A stretch of DNA of 43,297 nt from Syntrophales bacterium (GTDB lineage: Bacteria; Desulfobacterota; Syntrophia; Syntrophales; UBA4778): positions 1 to 43,297 of the forward strand of contig JAQTPK010000022.1 of the NCBI GenBank assembly GCA_028712885.1, given 5' to 3'. A program made the translations under genes and the position numbers. Positions 336 through 27,683 of the stretch are shown piece by piece. Below the pieces are notes generated by a model. The model ran no database searches and was not told the origin of the DNA. It was given only the letters and a program-made list of their open reading frames with translations. How positions within the stretch are numbered: the first letter of the stretch is position 1; every line of letters starts with the position of its first letter.

Positions 336-420
336 CAGGTCATGGGTCATGGGTAACAGGTTATGGGTTATGGGGAGCGGGAAAAGCGCCTTGAGTGCGC
401 AGTTTGCAGTTCACGATTCA
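336..420. repeat. Degenerate word array 1 (AGGTCAT/GGGTTAT words)
   Basis: Positions 336-378 consist almost wholly of variants of a 7-base word: AGGTCAT, GGGTCAT, GGGTAAC, AGGTTAT, GGGTTAT. A second short array, GCAGTTT/GCAGTTC, follows at about 400-415. The first word family recurs at 22021-22090. No open frame or known element explains it. Confidence 0.6.
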
Positions 421-558: not shown

Positions 559-879
559 TTATCTCCTGCAGGTTAGAACGGGAGGCTTTGATGCAAACAC
601 ATACGCCCTGCGGCTCTGGTACTCGATTTCCGGATAGGGGCCTCTCTCGGTTATCTCAATTATTTCGAATCCGGCGCCCCGAAGGCAGTCGATAATGAAA
701 TCGGAAGCAAAAAACACGACTTCGATATCGACTTTCCTGCCGATGAACTCTTCCAGGTGAATCGTCTTCTCGCCCGCATGGTAGGTGAACAGGAATATTC
801 CGCCAGGCTTCAGACGCGAAAACTGAGAACCGTGGACCGGGAACTTAAAATTCCCCGATTTCCGCCGCCCAATACCCAA
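559..879 (-). pseudogene. Truncated class I SAM-dependent methyltransferase (C-terminal fragment)
   Basis: From about position 828 down to 559 the minus strand reads FSRLKPGGIFLFTYHAG, then an acidic/hydrophobic stretch, and ends with GAGFEIIEITERGPYPEIEY and RRAYVFASKP. These are the last strands of the Rossmann methyltransferase fold, in the style of small stand-alone methyltransferases. The SAM-binding motif I (GxGxG) and everything N-terminal to the 'LKPGG' strand are missing. The first ~20 codons of the open frame are word-repeat sequence (862-890), not protein-like. The fragment lies just downstream of the activator gene on the same strand. It is probably non-functional. Confidence 0.6.
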
Positions 880-890
880 CGCCCAATGCC
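862..890. repeat. Degenerate word array 2 (GGGCGTT/GGGTATT words, minus sense)
   Basis: On the minus strand this reads as GGCATT, GGGCGTT, GGGTATT, GGGCGG in tandem. It sits exactly where the methyltransferase fragment loses homology, between that fragment and the activator stop codon. Confidence 0.5.
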
Positions 891-4220: not shown

Positions 4221-4336
4221 AGGGCGAAAGACTGACGGCAAATGGCGGAGGGCGAAGGGCGAAGAAGATATATCGTATCAGATCCGTTTCGGTTCCCGGC
4301 CTTTCGCCTTAAGCCTTTAGCCTTGTGCCTTTAGCC
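4221..4336. repeat. Degenerate word array 3, inverted arms, in the operon leader
   Basis: The left arm (4221-4265) has GGCGGA, GGGCGAA, GGGCGAA. The right arm (4299-4336), read on the minus strand, has GGCTAAA, GGCACAA, GGCTAAA, GGCTTAA, GGCGAAA. The arms face each other across about 33 bp and could pair in the RNA, since the predicted transcript starts at about 4219. Confidence 0.6.
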
Positions 4337-4359: not shown

Positions 4360-5520
4360 ATGGATTTCAACCTCACTGAAGAACAGAGGATGTTGAGGGA
4401 TTCGGTGGCGAATTTCGCCGCCAAGGAAATCAAGCCGATAGCCGAGGAAATCGATCGCGAGGACAAGTGGCCGGACGGACTGTGGCAAAAGCTTGCCGAG
4501 CTGGGTATCATGGGGATTACCGTCGACCCGGAATACGGCGGCGCGGGGGCGGATATCCTTTCCGCCTCTCTGGCCTGTGAAGAGCTGGCCCGCGTCTCCG
4601 CGGCCGTCGCACTTTCCTGGGGCGCACACGCCAATCTCTGCTGCAATAATCTCAACAGCCACGCGAACGAGGTGCAGAAGAGAAAATATCTTCCACCTCT
4701 CTGCAGCGGCAGGCACATCGGGGCTCTCGGCCTGACCGAGCCGAATGCCGGATCGGATGCCGTCGGCATCCAGACATCGGCGAAGAGGGAGGGCGACTTT
4801 TATGTGGTAAATGGATCCAAGATGTTCATCACTAACGGTCCTGTCGCAAATACGGTCGTTCTCTACGCCAAAACGGAAAAGAGCGCAGGACCGAAGGGGA
4901 TCACCGCCTTTATTCTCGATACAAAGTTCCCCGGGTTTTCCGTTTCCAGAAAACTGAACAAGGTCGGCAACCGGGGTTCTGCAACGGGCGAGCTTGTCCT
5001 GGACAACTGCCGCATTCCGGCGGAAAACATCATCGGCCAGGAAAACAAGGGAATTGCAGTAATGATGGGCGGCCTCGACGTGGAAAGGGCCTTCTTCGGC
5101 ACCTACGCCCTCGGCATTGCCGAAGCAGCTTTCGAGGAATCCGTCAAGTACGCCAAGGAGAGGGTCCAGTTCGGAAAACCGATCGCCGCGTTCCAGCTCA
5201 TTCAGCAGAAGATCGCGGACATGTACGCGCAGATCGAAGCGGCCCGGCTCATGTGCTACAAGGCCGCGATTCTGGCGGACAACGTGAAGAGGGGCGGGAA
5301 GGGGACGGAAGTGCACCTCATCTCCGCGTCCGCGATACTGCTGTGCGCCGAAATCTCGGTCAAGGTCTGCGAGGAGGCGGTCCAGATCCATGGCGGGTAC
5401 GGGTACTGTCTTGAATATCCCGTGCAGCGCTTCTGGCGGGACGCAAAACTCGGCACGATCGGTGCGGGTACGTCGGAAATGCGGCGCCTGATTATAGCGC
5501 GGGAAATCCTTAAAATGTGA
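4360..5520 (+). CDS. Acyl-CoA dehydrogenase, isovaleryl-CoA dehydrogenase type
   Basis: A 386-residue FAD flavoenzyme that would form the alpha,beta double bond of an acyl-CoA and pass electrons to ETF. It has the family signatures (LTEPNAGSD at about 125-133, NGSKMFITNG at 151-160, IHGGYGY). The usual catalytic Glu of the C-terminal YEGT motif is absent: the segment reads GAGTSEMRRL, as in isovaleryl-CoA dehydrogenase. Instead Glu242 in GLDVER matches the catalytic base of that subfamily, so a 3-methyl-branched substrate is plausible. It is the first gene of the sigma-54 operon, with AGGAG before the ATG. Eight bases separate it from the MaoC gene. The exact substrate is inference. Confidence 0.9.
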   Translation: MDFNLTEEQRMLRDSVANFAAKEIKPIAEEIDREDKWPDGLWQKLAELGIMGITVDPEYGGAGADILSASLACEELARVSAAVALSWGAHANLCCNNLNSHANEVQKRKYLPPLCSGRHIGALGLTEPNAGSDAVGIQTSAKREGDFYVVNGSKMFITNGPVANTVVLYAKTEKSAGPKGITAFILDTKFPGFSVSRKLNKVGNRGSATGELVLDNCRIPAENIIGQENKGIAVMMGGLDVERAFFGTYALGIAEAAFEESVKYAKERVQFGKPIAAFQLIQQKIADMYAQIEAARLMCYKAAILADNVKRGGKGTEVHLISASAILLCAEISVKVCEEAVQIHGGYGYCLEYPVQRFWRDAKLGTIGAGTSEMRRLIIAREILKM

Positions 5521-10285: not shown

Positions 10286-10430
10286 GCCGGTTCGTCGAGT
10301 CTGTTTGTGTTTATTGAGTTCATGGCGTCTGCCGCGTCTGTGCGAATTCTCAACAGGCCGGCAGACGCACTGTATCCTGGACGCAACGGACCTGTGGACC
10401 CGATGGACTCAATAGACAAATACTCTAAGG
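10286..10430. repeat. Degenerate word array 4, inverted arms (GACGC/ACTCAATA words)
   Basis: The left arm (10286-10342) and right arm (10364-10430) face each other. TGTTTATTGAGT (10308-10319) matches 11 of 12 with ACTCAATAGACA (10407-10418) on the other strand. The right arm also has GGACGCAACGGACC and ACCCGATGGAC, both of which recur in array 5 beyond the next gene. Confidence 0.6.
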
Positions 10431-10443
10431 AGAACGGAAAATA

Positions 10444-11592
10444 ATGTTTCCAGAATTCACAGAGGAGCAGAAACTGCTCCAGGATACAATCAGGAATTTC
10501 GCTGAAAAGGAGGTGGCGCCGCTCGCCGCGGAAATCGACCGCGAAGAGCGCTTTCCGAGCGAGACCTTCCGGAAACTTGCGGCCATGGGGCTCCTCGGCA
10601 TCACGGTCCCCGCCGAACTTGGGGGCGCCGGTGCGGGGTACACTGAAATGTGTATCGTGACCGAGGAGCTCGCGGCCGTTTGTCTGTCGACCTCCGCCGT
10701 ATGGGGAACGCATGCCCTGCTGTGCATAGACAACATCCGCCGCAACGGGTCGGAGGATCAGCTGCGGGCCTACCTGCCGCCCCTGTGCAGCGGCGAAAAA
10801 ATCGGAGGACTTGCGATGACGGAGCCCTTCGCCGGTTCGGATGTGATGTCCATGCGCCTCAGGGCGGAGCGCCGGGACGGCGAATACGTCCTTAACGGCT
10901 CAAAAATTTTCATCTCCAACGGTCCGGTCGGGGACGTGTTCGTCATATACGCCAAGACGGATCCCGACAAGGGGCCGCACGGGGTCTCGGCCTTCATTGT
11001 CGAAAAGGATTTTCCCGGATTCCAGCGGGGAAAGAAATTCGAGAAGATGGGGTGGCGCGGCTCTCCCACCGGAGAGCTTGTCTTCGAAGACTGCCGGGTG
11101 CCGGCGGCGAACCTCCTGGGAAAGGAGAACAGGGGCGCCCTTGTGCTTATGAGCGGGCTCAACACGGAGCGGGTATGCCTCGGGGCGATGTCGCTGGGGT
11201 TGTCTCGCGGCGCGTATGAGTGTGCGCTGAAATACGCAAGGGAAAGGGTACAGTTCGGAAAGCCGATCGCCTCTTTTCAGCTGATCCAGGCCAAACTTGC
11301 GGACATGGCGATGGAGATCGAGCTCTCGAGGCTCATTACATACAAGGGGGCCCTGATGGCGGACAGGGGCATGCACCGGAAAATGAACCTGGTTGCGGCC
11401 TATGCAAAGCTTTACACATCCGAAGTCGCCATGAGGACGACGACGGAAGCAGTCCAGATAATGGGCGGCTACGGCTATATGAAGGAGTTTCCCGTGGAAA
11501 GAATGATGCGCGATGCGAAGCTGCAGGCCATCGGCGGCGGAACTTCGGAGATACAGCGGCTCATAATAGCACGGGAGATACTGGGCGGTTAG
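10444..11592 (+). CDS. Second isovaleryl-CoA-dehydrogenase-type acyl-CoA dehydrogenase
   Basis: A 382-residue flavoenzyme, clearly paralogous to the one at 4360. It has MTEPFAGSD, NGSKIFISNGP and QIMGGYGY. The C-terminal motif reads GGGTSEIQRL rather than YEGT, and Glu242 in LNTER is the likely base, as in the isovaleryl-CoA dehydrogenase subfamily. AAGGAGA lies about 10 bp before the ATG. The gene is flanked on both sides by word arrays that share sequence, including an 11-bp direct repeat, which suggests it arrived or duplicated as a unit. It may act on a later intermediate than its paralogue. Confidence 0.9.
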   Translation: MFPEFTEEQKLLQDTIRNFAEKEVAPLAAEIDREERFPSETFRKLAAMGLLGITVPAELGGAGAGYTEMCIVTEELAAVCLSTSAVWGTHALLCIDNIRRNGSEDQLRAYLPPLCSGEKIGGLAMTEPFAGSDVMSMRLRAERRDGEYVLNGSKIFISNGPVGDVFVIYAKTDPDKGPHGVSAFIVEKDFPGFQRGKKFEKMGWRGSPTGELVFEDCRVPAANLLGKENRGALVLMSGLNTERVCLGAMSLGLSRGAYECALKYARERVQFGKPIASFQLIQAKLADMAMEIELSRLITYKGALMADRGMHRKMNLVAAYAKLYTSEVAMRTTTEAVQIMGGYGYMKEFPVERMMRDAKLQAIGGGTSEIQRLIIAREILGG

Positions 11593-11766
11593 CGTCCATT
11601 GCGTCCTTCGCGTCCCGTTGCGTCTATTGCGTTCTCCTGAATCTTTCGGGTGTCGAAGAAATTATCGAGTATTTCGGTGCCTCTTGAAATTGAATAAGTA
11701 CTGAACTCTATTACCCGATGGACCAGACAGACGCTTGACGCAACGGACGCAACGGACGCTAGAGAC
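11592..11766. repeat. Degenerate word array 5, inverted arms (GACGCAACGG words)
   Basis: The left arm (11592-11636), read on the minus strand, has GAACGC, GACGCAACGG, GACGCGAAGG, GACGCAATGG. The right arm (11721-11766) has CAGACGC, GACGCAACG and GACGCTAG. ACCCGATGGAC at 11713-11723 repeats 10398-10408. The ~85 bp between the arms shows no gene. Confidence 0.6.
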
Positions 11767-11844: not shown

Positions 11845-13041
11845 GTGACCCTTTTGACTCAGAAAAAAATCTACCTCGATCACAGCGCCACGACGCCCCT
11901 CCACCCGGACGTGATCGAATCCATGCTGCCGTTCCTGTCCTCCAGGTTCGGCAACCCATCGAGCATCCACGGCTTCGGCAGAGAGGCCCGGGAAGGGATT
12001 GAATCAGCGCGGATCAAGGTGGCGTCGGCGCTGGGGGCGCGTCCGAACGAAATAATTTTTACCAGCGGCGGAACGGAGGCCGACAACATCGCACTGCTGG
12101 GCGTTGCCGAAGCGATGCGCGGCCGGGGCAAGCATATCGTGACTTCCGGGATCGAGCACGCGGCCGTGCTGTACACCTGCCGGCACCTTGAGGAAAAAGG
12201 CTTCAGCGTCACTTATCTGCCCGTGGACCGCTTCGGCCGGGTCGACCCCGATGCTGCGGCGAAGGCGTTCCGCAAAGACACCATCCTTGTCAGCATAATG
12301 CTCGCCAACAACGAGATCGGCACGATCCAGCCTGTAGCCGAGATCGCCCGGGCCGCTGCAGAGAGGGGAATTGTTGTTCATTCGGACGCTGTCCAGGCCC
12401 TCGGCAGGATCCCCTGCGGCGTTGACGACCTCGGGGTCAATCTGTTGTCCGTATCCGCCCATAAGCTGAACGGGCCCAAGGGCGTCGGGGCACTCTATGT
12501 CCGGGAGGGGACTCCCATCAAGCCGCTCTTTCACGGCGGGCATCAGGAAAGGGATGTGCGCAACGGCACGGAAAACGTCGCGGGGATCGTCGGATTCGGC
12601 AAGGCCTGCGAAATTTCCTCGCGCGTCCTGGAAGAAAGGCGGAAAAATCTGCGGGCAATCCGCGATGCGTTCCAGTCGGAAGTCCTCGGCGCCGTCGGCG
12701 GCGTCCATTTCAACGGTCATCCCGAGCACCGGCTTCCCCATCTCCTCAGTATTTCCATCGAGAATACGGCGGGCGATGCGGTCGTACGCGAGCTCGACAA
12801 ACAGGGTATAGCCGTCTCGGCGGGCGCAGCCTGCCACTCGCAGTCGGTGAGCATCTCGCACGTCATCTCGGCGACGGGCCTTGAGCAAAGGATTGCCCTC
12901 GGCACAGTGCGGATCAGCTTCGGCCTCAACAACACGCGTAAGGACGCGCAAGCGGCGTTATCCGCGCTGGTACTGACGGTCGAAAAACTGAGGGCGATGA
13001 AAGACCTGGAAGAATCTCTTGGCGGCAGGAGATGCACATGA
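11845..13041 (+). CDS. Cysteine desulfurase (NifS/IscS class)
   Basis: A 398-residue PLP enzyme that takes sulfur from cysteine to give a persulfide and alanine. It has the N-terminal YLDHSATTPLHP, the phosphate/PLP region TSGGTEADN and HAAV, the PLP lysine in SVSAHKLNGPKG, and a catalytic Cys in SAGAACHSQS at about residue 330. The loop after that Cys is short, as in class II NifS-like proteins. The start is a GTG; no better ATG exists before the conserved region. No IscU, tRNA thiolation or SUF genes are adjacent. Its position inside an acyl-CoA operon is unusual; it may serve Fe-S or thiocofactor needs, or be an independent gene between two word-repeat spacers. Confidence 0.9.
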   Translation: MTLLTQKKIYLDHSATTPLHPDVIESMLPFLSSRFGNPSSIHGFGREAREGIESARIKVASALGARPNEIIFTSGGTEADNIALLGVAEAMRGRGKHIVTSGIEHAAVLYTCRHLEEKGFSVTYLPVDRFGRVDPDAAAKAFRKDTILVSIMLANNEIGTIQPVAEIARAAAERGIVVHSDAVQALGRIPCGVDDLGVNLLSVSAHKLNGPKGVGALYVREGTPIKPLFHGGHQERDVRNGTENVAGIVGFGKACEISSRVLEERRKNLRAIRDAFQSEVLGAVGGVHFNGHPEHRLPHLLSISIENTAGDAVVRELDKQGIAVSAGAACHSQSVSISHVISATGLEQRIALGTVRISFGLNNTRKDAQAALSALVLTVEKLRAMKDLEESLGGRRCT

Positions 13042-13042
13042 A

Positions 13043-13064
13043 AGGCATCAGGCATCAGGCGCCG
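13043..13064. repeat. Short word array 6 (AGGCATC words)
   Basis: AGGCATC, AGGCATC, AGGCGCC in tandem just after the cysteine desulfurase stop codon. The same word starts the terminator hairpin at 15372. Confidence 0.35.
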
Positions 13065-13125: not shown

Positions 13126-13227
13126 CTTGAAGGCAGAATAGTTTGTTTCTCGCCCGAGAAGATGAATTGAACTTATCGGGGGGATTTGTTATGCAGAGAA
13201 GAGCGACACCTAATCCGGGGGGCAGCT

Positions 13228-14019
13228 ATGGAATTCAAGGATATTATTTTTACGGTCAGGGATGGAGTGGCAAAAATCACGTTCAATAAACCGAAGACGT
13301 TCAATTCCGTCGATCTTGATTTTTCCGGGGAGATAGAAGCGGCGGTTGAGGAATGCGAAAAGAACGATGCAATCAGGGCCGTGGTCATCACCGGCAAGGG
13401 CAAGGCATTCTGCGGGGGCGGCGATATTTCATACTTCACAAAATATTTTGACGGCGACCGGGCCGAGCCTTTCCGGCAGATAATCAAAAAAGTAAATCTG
13501 CTGATCATATCTATCCGCCGCATGGCGAAGCCCGTTATCGCGCAGATCAACGGCGCGGCGGGCGGCGCGGGGATCAGCCTCGCCGCGGCATGCGACCTGC
13601 GGGTCTGCGCCGCTTCGGCGAAATTCCGCACCGGCTACACCTCGATCGGCCTGGTCGGGGACGGCGGCTGGACTGTCTTCATCCCCCAGCTTGTAGGATT
13701 CGGCAAGGCGATGGAAATAATGCTGCTCGATCCCTTCTTTGACGCGAAACAGGCTCTGGAGTGGGGTTTTGTGAACAAAGTCGTTGAGGATTCCGATCTC
13801 GAGCGCACGGTGGACGAACTGGCGCTCAAACTCGCCAAGGGGCCTACCCGGGCCTTTGCCATCGCGAAGGAGAATATGAACCGGGGCTTCATGGGAATGC
13901 TCGAACGCCAGCTCGAGCTCGAGCGGATGGGAATGGCGGAGGCTTCGCTGACGGCTGATTACGTCGAAGGCGTCAAGGCCTTCCTGGAAAAGAGGCCCGC
14001 CAAGTTTACGGGTAAATAA
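13228..14019 (+). CDS. Crotonase-fold enoyl-CoA isomerase/hydratase, PaaG-like
   Basis: A 263-residue crotonase. The oxyanion-hole segments are present (GKAFCGGGDIS; NGAAGGAGISLAAACD). The two Glu residues used by true enoyl-CoA hydratases are missing: the first is replaced by Ser/Ile in GAGISLA, and the second lies in SIGLVGDGGW with no Glu. The Asp in GLVGDGG matches the active Asp of PaaG-type isomerases (GLVPDxGG). It is therefore more likely an isomerase, or another member of the family, than a hydratase. GGGGGG precedes the chosen ATG by 5 bp; an ATG 42 bp upstream would add an atypical leader. Confidence 0.87.
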   Translation: MEFKDIIFTVRDGVAKITFNKPKTFNSVDLDFSGEIEAAVEECEKNDAIRAVVITGKGKAFCGGGDISYFTKYFDGDRAEPFRQIIKKVNLLIISIRRMAKPVIAQINGAAGGAGISLAAACDLRVCAASAKFRTGYTSIGLVGDGGWTVFIPQLVGFGKAMEIMLLDPFFDAKQALEWGFVNKVVEDSDLERTVDELALKLAKGPTRAFAIAKENMNRGFMGMLERQLELERMGMAEASLTADYVEGVKAFLEKRPAKFTGK

Positions 14020-14125
14020 GTTCCAAGTCTCAGGTCTCAAGTCTCAAGGCCGTTTTCTTGAGCGGAACAGATTTTAAAATCGTCGGTTCTTCTATTAACT
14101 CGAAACTCGAAACTTGAAACTTCCG
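14020..14125. repeat. Degenerate word array 7, facing arms (AAGTCTC / GAAACTC words)
   Basis: The left arm (14020-14050) is AAGTCTC, AGGTCTC, AAGTCTC, AAGG. The right arm (14095-14123) is AACTCGA, AACTCGA, AACTTGA, AACTTCC. On the minus strand the left arm reads ACTTGAGA-type words, so the arms are inverted relatives. The next gene's ribosome site begins directly after it. Confidence 0.55.
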
Positions 14126-14137
14126 AAGGGAGGTTAT

Positions 14138-15325
14138 ATGCCGGGAGCACTCGAAGGCGTTAAGGTGCTGGATTTTACAACGCTGCTTCCTGGACCGTAC
14201 GCGACCATGTATCTCGCAGACATGGGCGCGGATGTGCTCAGAATAGCGTCCAGATCGCGGCCGGACCTGGTGGATTTTTTCCCCCCATACCTGCCCGGCA
14301 CCAGATTTTCCGCAGCTTCCGCGCAGCTCGGGAGGAATAAGCGACTCCTCACGCTTAACCTGAAGGATCCGAGGGTTCTGAAGATAATTCACCGGCTGAT
14401 CTCCGAATACGACGTTGTCGTCGAGCAGTTCCGCCCGGGAGTAATGGCAAAACTGAAACTTGACTACGACAGCCTGAAGGCGGTCAACCCGGCGGTGATA
14501 TACTGCTCGATAACCGGCTACGGCCAGACTGGGCCCATGCGGGACAGGGCGGGACACGACATGAATTACATGTCCCGGTCCGGAGTTATGTCCTATTCGG
14601 GGAAGAAAGAGACGGGTCCGAGCCTGATGGGAATCCAGATCGCCGACGTCGCCTCGGGATCCAACAACGCCGTGATAGGCATCCTGGCCGCGATCGTTTA
14701 CAGGAACCGGACCGGGAAGGGGCAGGCGATAGATATATCGATGACGGACGGCGTCGTCGCGCTGAACGCAATGTACGGCGCGGGCTTTCTCGTGGACGGG
14801 TGCAATCCCGAACGGGAGAAAACTCTGCTCAACGGCGGCTCCCTTTACGACTTCTACGAAACAAGCGACGGCGGCCACATCAGCTTCGGCGGGCTGGAGC
14901 CGCAGTTTTTCACAAATTTCTTCAACACTATCGGAAAACCCGAATTCATTTCGGGCGGCGTTTCCCCGAAAAACATCGCCGAAGTGAAAAAAGAAGTCCG
15001 GGAGATAATCCGGTCCAGGACAAAGAATGAATGGCTTGACATCTTTTCCCGGACGGACGCATGCGTCGAGCCGGTTATGACCCTCTCGGAGGTTTTCAGC
15101 GATCCGCTCATTCTGGAGAGGGGTATGGTTGTCGACGTGCCCTCCGGGACGGGAAAGCAGGTCCGCCAGATTGCCAATCCGGTCAAATTTTCGGAGACGC
15201 CACCGGAGTACAGGAGCATCGGCGTTTCGGCGGCCGGCGGCGCCCACACGAAAGAAGTCATGGCCGGACTGGGATTTTCCGAAAAGGAAATAGAGGAATT
15301 CGAGAAAACCGGCCTGTTTGATTAA
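14138..15325 (+). CDS. Class III CoA-transferase family protein, alpha-methylacyl-CoA racemase-like
   Basis: A 395-residue CaiB/BaiF-family protein. The segment RAGHDMNYMSRSG aligns with the active-site His/Asp block of alpha-methylacyl-CoA racemase (GHDINYLALSG), and IADVASG follows where the racemase has its second acid. The family also includes formyl-CoA-type transferases, which use the same Asp. Racemase activity would fit a pathway handling 2-methyl-branched acyl-CoAs. AAGGGAGG lies 5 bp before the ATG at 14138; an earlier in-frame start would overlap word array 7. It is the last gene of the plus-strand operon, closed by a terminator. Confidence 0.87.
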   Translation: MPGALEGVKVLDFTTLLPGPYATMYLADMGADVLRIASRSRPDLVDFFPPYLPGTRFSAASAQLGRNKRLLTLNLKDPRVLKIIHRLISEYDVVVEQFRPGVMAKLKLDYDSLKAVNPAVIYCSITGYGQTGPMRDRAGHDMNYMSRSGVMSYSGKKETGPSLMGIQIADVASGSNNAVIGILAAIVYRNRTGKGQAIDISMTDGVVALNAMYGAGFLVDGCNPEREKTLLNGGSLYDFYETSDGGHISFGGLEPQFFTNFFNTIGKPEFISGGVSPKNIAEVKKEVREIIRSRTKNEWLDIFSRTDACVEPVMTLSEVFSDPLILERGMVVDVPSGTGKQVRQIANPVKFSETPPEYRSIGVSAAGGAHTKEVMAGLGFSEKEIEEFEKTGLFD

Positions 15326-22020: not shown

Positions 22021-22092
22021 AACGGGTAATGGGTTATAGGTCTGAAAAAAAGAGAAGATCTATCGCCTATGACCCATAACCTATAACCCGAG
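22021..22092. repeat. Degenerate word array 8, inverted arms (GGGTTAT words)
   Basis: The left arm (22023-22042) is GGGTAAT, GGGTTAT, AGGTC. The right arm (22066-22090), on the minus strand, is GGGTTAT, AGGTTAT, GGGTCAT, AGG. The words are the same family as array 1 about 21.6 kb away. The hairpin sits between the PolX start and the end of the small unknown gene. Confidence 0.6.
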
Positions 22093-27646: not shown

Positions 27647-27683
27647 GCGGGAAAAGCGGGAAAGGCGGAAAAGGCGGGAAAAA
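27647..27683. repeat. Degenerate word array 9 (GCGGGAAAA words)
   Basis: Tandem GCGGGAAAA, GCGGGAAAG, GCGGAAAAG, GCGGGAAAAA directly after the ATPase stop codon, in a 113-bp gap within the polysaccharide locus. No inverted partner is clear. Confidence 0.55.

Follow-up and report, generated by a model that had tools for sequence, protein, structure and literature searches.

The intergenic spacers of the window, the whole 43,297-bp stretch of Syntrophales DNA analysed here (contig C27 of a 2.93-Mb host genome in 97 contigs), carry degenerate tandem arrays of short words, many of which are the two facing arms of one inverted pair, with the G-rich strand leading from each gene boundary into the spacer. 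The best reading, a tentative one that falls slightly short of an even chance, is that these are hairpins of insertion type, with arms made of word arrays prone to slippage.

Word arrays in the window

A sequence-only reading of the window had listed nine spans as tandem variants of a 6-10 base word. For each span, self-matches without gaps were scored afresh at lags of 5-12 and compared with 500 dinucleotide shuffles of that span. Seven of the nine exceeded all 500 shuffles, while 862-890 was marginal and 10286-10430 was not clearly tandem (Table 1). The arrays are indeed tandem, but with periods of 7, 8 or 9 and almost never of 6 or 10. Tandem Repeats Finder (TRF), run on the window, gave unit kinds that agree with the self-match scan. 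Five of the spans (4221-4336, 10286-10430, 11592-11766, 14020-14125 and 22021-22092) each comprise the two arms of one inverted pair, a pairing absent from the sequence-only reading, and the spacers do not "consist of" arrays, which occupy part of a spacer and not most of it. The same reading was correct in regarding the arrays as non-coding, with the same architecture at many loci, and as neither CRISPR, since there is no repeat-spacer layout, nor ordinary microsatellites, since the units deviate by 3-30% depending on position. Its first and eighth arrays do share words, both being GGGTNAT, but this is not special, as dozens of other loci share them too. Rfam at the gathering score gave no match anywhere in the window, and no tRNAs were found within it.

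Table 1. Arrays and paired arms in the window, with their position relative to genes. Shuffle counts refer to 500 dinucleotide shuffles per span.
Feature	Position	Strand	Evidence	Context
GGGTNAT heptamer array, single arm	338-374	+	period 7, score 15, 0/500 shuffles	spacer 331-558
Short CCCAAYR array (pyrimidine strand on +)	868-890	-	period 7, 3/500 shuffles; marginal	array, and span 862-890, overlaps end of ORF 559-879
5' arm, words GGCGAAA/GGCGAAG	4223-4264	+	fold -45.6	partner 4299-4336
3' arm, words GCCTTTA/GCCTTTC	4299-4336	-	period 7, 0/500 shuffles	stops just upstream of RBS of 4360-5520
5' arm of long hairpin, GAGTCTG..GCGTCTG words	10298-10342	+	fold -61.9, z -4.0; tandem signal weak (20/500 shuffles)	hairpin occupies whole spacer 10286-10443
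3' arm of hairpin, GGACNNNNN words	10362-10420	-	fold	spacer 10286-10443
5' arm, GCGTCYATT 9-mers	11590-11632	+	TRF period 9; fold z -5.6	first unit contains TAG stop of 10444-11592
3' arm, GACGCAACG 9-mers	11737-11759	-	period 9, 0/500 shuffles; 126 pattern matches in host genome	
AGGCATC array	13043-13060	+	0/500 shuffles	directly after stop of 11845-13041
5' arm, AAGTCTC words	14024-14048	+	period 7, 0/500 shuffles	directly after stop of 13186-14019
3' arm, AACTCGA words	14097-14121	-	TRF period 7; pairs in fold	just ahead of likely RBS and ATG at 14139
5' arm, GGGTAATGGGTTATAGGTC	22028-22046	+	pairs in fold with 3' arm 22060-22089	
3' arm, CCTATGACCCATAACCTATAACCC	22060-22089	-	period 7, 0/500 shuffles	
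GCGGGAAAA 9-mer array, single arm	27647-27681	+	period 9, score 18.5, 0/500 shuffles	

Array density in the host genome

We scanned 1.19 of the 2.93 Mb of the host genome, largely contigs already known for GGGTNAT matches, with genes called by a simple codon-usage caller that gave a sensible map of the window. Spacers of at least 15 bp, 126 kb in total, contained 187 tandem arrays, or 14.8 per 10 kb, a density that is possibly somewhat high owing to this GGGTNAT-biased choice of contigs. Coding DNA held 49 arrays in 1.04 Mb (0.47 per 10 kb) and shuffled spacers a single array in 631 kb (0.02 per 10 kb); these contrasts are independent of the bias, and the excess over shuffled spacers is in line with the sequence-only reading. 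The period was 7 in 122 of the 187 arrays, 8 in 31 and 9 in 32, with only 2 of any other period. An array was present in 130 of the 466 spacers of at least 80 bp (28%), and in the array-rich samples that were analysed, arrays accounted for roughly 5-13% of the spacer DNA. The reversed-pattern control for GGGTNAT is no true null, because GGGTATT words also form real arrays.

The array frequency was equal in tandem (0.28), divergent (0.27) and convergent (0.28) spacers, and therefore neither terminators nor promoters fit. Intrinsic terminators were rejected because arrays are not restricted to the 3' sides of genes, divergent spacers being compared with convergent ones, and promoters because of the equality across all spacer classes.

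Vocabulary and grammar of the words

Loci do not each have their own word, as had been proposed: about a dozen word families recur genome-wide. The recurrent heptamers are GGGTAAT/GGGTTAT, GGCGTAA, GGCTAAA, GTGAAAA, GGGATTT, GAGACTT/GGGACTC and GGGTATT/GGGCATT. In the sampled host genome, the recurrent 8-mers are GGGTTCGA, GAAGATGC, GCTGAGAA and GGTGAGAT, and the recurrent 9-mers are GGACGCAAT and GGGAAAGGC. The pattern RGYNWHR, in any rotation, fits 125 of the 174 heptamer arrays with at least three units, versus 35 when letters are shuffled. The deviation rates at its positions 1-7 are 0.09, 0.035, 0.11, 0.30, 0.09, 0.08 and 0.16, the fourth base being hypervariable and the G at the second position nearly fixed. 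This rule was derived post hoc from host-genome words and then tried on two further genomes, G231 and G159. In G231, which belongs to another family of the same phylum and whose loci were not chosen by pattern, it was found in 35 of 49 arrays versus 8.8 shuffled, and in G159 there was no clear fit (9 of 33 arrays versus 6.5 shuffled).

Words are also shared between genomes. Exact heptamer classes are common to the host genome and G231 in 44 arrays, versus 8.1 for shuffled words, and correction for the grammar gave 42 versus 18.8. The 9-mer words, at up to one mismatch, are common with G196 in 14 of 42 arrays and with G159 in 10 of 42, versus 0.1-0.2. Exact word sharing with cyanobacteria exceeds letter shuffles; sharing with them beyond the grammar was not significant (10 versus 6.8 expected). 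Local spreading among neighbouring spacers was rejected, as word sharing between spacers within 3 kb (0.083) is only slightly above that between contigs (0.061).

Paired arms and polarity

Arrays find their best complement within their own spacer, with a mean score of 21.1 versus 14.1 for other array spacers and 13.0 for shuffles; the score of same-strand partners was 15.7. In the 57 clear inverted pairs, arms of about 25 bp flank an intervening segment of 55 bp. Of 54 pairs, 49 have a G-rich 5' arm and 5 a C-rich one, and array-less spacers exhibit no such skew. The arrangement with purines on the left and pyrimidines on the right is strongly favoured (72:29 versus 17:69, p 1.6e-12). Within 50 bp of a gene boundary, the G-rich strand runs into the spacer in 110 cases versus 31 in reverse, and this inward polarity is seen at both the 3' and the 5' ends of genes, whatever the gene strand. 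It is kept in arrays with fewer than two GGG runs (p 1.3e-6). G-quadruplexes were rejected as a unifying cause, since the motif is present in only 27 of the 187 arrays and the polarity holds without GGG runs. This polarity also reached significance in G231 (p 0.007) and in cyanobacterial loci (p 0.005), and its direction is identical in the genomes G104 and G058.

Arrays tend to adjoin genes: 37% lie within 10 bp of a spacer end, versus 14% expected, and 34 of the 120 arrays in same-direction spacers lie within 5 bp of a stop codon. The arms mismatch at 0.32 in register and at 0.48 one unit off, the alignment being chosen for fit; hairpin covariation at the variable position was set aside as weak, because this in-register advantage comes from the fit-selected alignment. 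Similarity extends at least 30 bp past the array for 48 of 185 arrays in the host genome and for 52 of 109 in G231, and 129 of the 185 host arrays resemble other arrays solely within the array. The segments between paired arms are mostly unique, with a relative in another spacer for 4 of 38, versus 12 of 150 controls, in the sampled host genome.

Turnover in a second lineage

Turnover was read in a second genus of the same phylum, g64, in which only about ten orthologous spacers were compared between G231 and G196 (91-94% identity in the longest blocks) and G159 (about 82%). One spacer (L258, 16147-16249) exhibits ATTGACG words in G231, a GGCGTTA / ACCCCTC pair in G196, and TTCGAGT plus GGTTATT words in G159. 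In another (L258, 11098-11334), G231 carries a 123-bp hairpin, GACACGGATTTACACAGATTT ... ATCCGTGTAATCCGTGTC, between a stop codon and an RBS; the site is empty in both G196 and G159, and the insertion has no target duplication. Its closest relative within G231 is only 73% identical. Several relatives in G231 carry the ends GACACGG..CCGTGTC, and two also share loop parts. A 128-bp element of G196 has a terminal inverted repeat (TIR), GTAACTGTTCAG, its inverted end measuring 12 bp, and a duplication of 8 bp, ATTAATTA.

An array common to G231 and G196 and absent from G159 shows an indel of two units (14 bp) and numerous substitutions between its two copies, though the flanking genes are alike. 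Copy number thus varies between close relatives, as the sequence-only reading had envisaged, and this difference in unit number makes slippage part of the story. Slippage alone, which that reading had offered as an origin, fails for the precise 123-bp hairpin between stop codon and RBS and leaves the different words within the same spacer of congeners unexplained. The arrays turn over fast and do not look like fixed control signals.

Origin of the arrays

We propose that the elements would be intergenic dyads, or 'paired word arrays', each arm being a degenerate tandem array of 7-, 8- or 9-base words and the two arms imperfect inverted copies, with the purine/G-rich strand pointing inward from each gene boundary. 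They would arrive in spacers by insertion, as MITE-like, non-autonomous elements whose presence between genes is tolerated, often immediately behind a stop codon or ahead of an RBS. Their arms would go on to diverge, with slippage adding or removing units, such that one word is lost and another gained between congeners. The words themselves could serve as the ends recognised by a mobilising activity that is provided in trans. No function for the host is put forward.

The empty site, the one duplication with inverted ends and the families that are alike beyond the array favour insertion, and the fixed polarity counts for it because an element with defined ends would have it. The direct evidence of insertion comes from the g64 lineage, not from the host genome, to which that lineage is probably a fair guide. 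Like MITEs, the elements are short, non-coding and intergenic, with ends that are inverted though imperfect; unlike them, they exhibit no consistent target duplication, their loops are mostly unique in the host genome, and their arms are word arrays. The arms are inverted but imperfect, with a good TIR in one G196 element; a target-site duplication of 8 bp flanks that element and none flanks the 123-bp G231 insertion; and interiors are not alike in the host genome (4 of 38) and are partly alike in one G231 family. The unique inter-arm segments of the host genome and the missing duplication at the 123-bp insertion count against insertion, as do the 73% identity of the closest G231 relative of that hairpin and the 129 of 185 host arrays whose resemblance to others stops at the array. 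No transposase tied to the arrays was found. REP/BIME elements mobilised by RAYT were ruled out, as TnpA-REP (Y1_Tnp, PF01797) has no match in the host genome.

The main rival is growth in place, in which each array would be built locally in its spacer, through slippage of the polymerase, synthesis by snap-back or template switching, or extension of 3' ends at breaks. With 3'-directed synthesis from both sides, it would also yield the polarity and the unique middles, purine words running inward on either side of a locus-specific segment. It is possible, if on the whole doubtful. The unique loops, the arms that have words in common yet no exact copies, the terminator bracketed by arrays in G196 and the changes in unit number between G231 and G196 are all consistent with it, as is the inward G-strand at both gene boundaries (110 versus 31), which growth directed by 3' ends would give. 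Nevertheless, it does not readily account for the precise 123-bp hairpin and the family members with common ends and loop parts, nor for the recurrence of 7- and 9-mer words in distant genomes more often than shuffling predicts, and a degeneracy that is specific to position is unexpected of plain slippage. There is a slim chance that bacteria have an activity which extends the 3' ends of chromosomal breaks with purine-rich words and so makes facing arrays, a telomerase-like outcome without known reverse transcriptases. If so, an enzyme that adds repeats, patchy across phyla, would have left its signature in RGYNWHR and the corresponding 8- and 9-mer patterns. An unknown repeat generator, as evoked by the sequence-only reading, may be involved. 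Another candidate is a telomerase-like reverse transcriptase of the DRT10 type, of which tandem 9-nt repeats are the product (PMC12632851), and the host genome has one RVT_1 gene. This source is extremely unlikely and in any case not general, because RVT_1 was not found in the five array-rich drafts G231, G196, G159, G104 and G065, where a divergent enzyme could be missed.

Functional explanations fare less well than insertion or growth in place. A role as tandem sites bound by one or several DNA- or RNA-binding regulators, by analogy with the paired 7-8-mer arrays of Geobacter metallireducens, would suit the position-specific degeneracy of RGYNWHR (deviation of 3.5% at position 2 and 30% at position 4), and paired inverted arrays were so named by Aklujkar 2009 (PMC2700814). 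We regard such sites as unlikely, in view of the equal frequency in all spacer classes, the other words or none in the orthologous spacers of g64 congeners, and the array-free orthologous spacers of family members. RNA-level hairpins acting as bidirectional terminators or mRNA stabilisers could explain the long stems and the many arrays that adjoin stop codons (a distance of at most 5 bp for 34 of the 120 in same-direction spacers). Divergent spacers, however, are as rich in arrays as convergent ones, a separate ordinary terminator lies inside the arms in G196, and some arrays are single-armed, such as 27647-27681, which makes this role very unlikely.

Comparison with known repeats

The nearest described kind is that of the paired G-rich heptamer repeats of Xanthomonas, which have the same architecture. 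Rehm et al. 2015 (PMC4692102) described GGGAATC repeats in Xanthomonas and GGGGAYT repeats in Nostoc, varying in length and sequence between species. Those of Xanthomonas are intergenic, with period 7 and heterogeneous units (GGGANTN), and form 70-75 opposite-strand pairs in convergent orientation; on the sense strand they lie near stop codons or overlap them, and on the antisense strand they lie shortly ahead of ORFs. Tandem 7-mers in spacers and opposite-strand pairs with facing G-strands are likewise present here. In contrast to the one G-quadruplex-type word per genome described there, about a dozen families with periods 7, 8 and 9 are observed here, and GGG tracts suited to G-quadruplexes give way to a motif in only 27 of 187 arrays. 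The repeats of Rehm et al. are rare between divergent ORFs, whereas ours are as frequent there (0.27) as elsewhere (0.28), and their loci are more conserved than controls, whereas the word at a given locus is poorly conserved in the g64 lineage.

In Aklujkar et al. 2009 (PMC2700814), three classes of predicted 'global regulator binding sites' of G. metallireducens resemble our arrays in having tandem 7- or 8-mers, opposite-strand pairs, variable distance and many copies. They differ in comprising three defined families with a fixed unit number, one of them tied to ISGme8/9, and a vocabulary common with distant genomes is not reported in the text available. The TAACTGA repeats of Beggiatoaceae (MacGregor 2015, PMC4679880) are also intergenic heptamer arrays, numerous and patchy across phyla, but have one invariant word, with direct repeats of related heptamers rare and one indirect repeat only.

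Heptanucleotide repeats are known from the cyanobacterium Calothrix. Among the matches listed from outside the phylum, most exact GGGTWAT arrays belong to filamentous cyanobacteria, with scattered ones in Bacteroidota, Betaproteobacteria, Chloroflexota and relatives of Beggiatoa. The Calothrix repeats are among the short tandemly repeated repetitive sequences (STRR) known in heterocystous cyanobacteria. STRR resemble our arrays as heptanucleotide tandem arrays, and cyanobacteria dominate the exact GGGTWATGGGTWATGGGTWATGG matches among those listed. To our knowledge, STRR have been described as direct repeats, and inverted pairing with polarity is not in that description.

Heptamer arrays in bacterial spacers have been described one group at a time: STRR in cyanobacteria, G4 repeats in Xanthomonas, 'regulator sites' in Geobacter and TAACTGA in Beggiatoa. 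The facing arms, inward G-strand, hypervariable fourth base, common vocabulary and fast turnover suggest that several known arrays are one phenomenon, and these rules give concrete predictions for tracing the activity behind them. In the open-access literature, we did not find the vocabulary, the polarity across words, the grammar of degenerate positions or the replacement of words within the same spacer described.

Distribution and other observations

The nearest relatives of the host, in the same family, have few arrays (3 in 7.3 kb of spacers), and in family members the spacers orthologous to those around the acyl-CoA dehydrogenase gene are without arrays. GGGTWAT arrays are present in only 14 of 149 genomes of the order and GACGCAAYR arrays in only 6 of 395 genomes of the phylum. 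Exact GGGTWAT arrays also occur on 26 viral contigs (L183-L208), and arrays may travel on phages or prophages.

The reverse transcriptase gene of the host genome (RVT_1, L331, G000:C60:480-1103) has an open frame of 507 aa. In G231, 46-bp blocks of four GTCCGACTG 9-mers and a T-rich linker are found at L305 914-1050 and 3873-4900; the counterpart of the latter expansion in G196 is an array-free spacer of 283 bp. In G196, the orthologue of L258 882-968 (L298, G196:C156) has facing arms of GGGTCCGA 8-mers around an ordinary terminator between convergent genes, and the G159 counterpart keeps the terminator and similar outer arms. Other short elements are dispersed over many sites in three congeners with roughly 90-100% identity, among them G231 L257 5918-6001 (CCCTCCGGGCTGG..) and 15255-15320 (GCCCTACGGGCTGGAAGCGGGG). 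The palindromic repeat TGTCATTTCGAATCCGCCG..GGATGAGAAATCTTT..AAGATTTCTCGTCGCTTCGCTCCTCGAAATGACA occurs at L028 19581-19685, L209 17413-17517 and L245 1170-1268 in copies that are 95-98% identical, and is an ordinary MITE/REP-like element separate from the word arrays.
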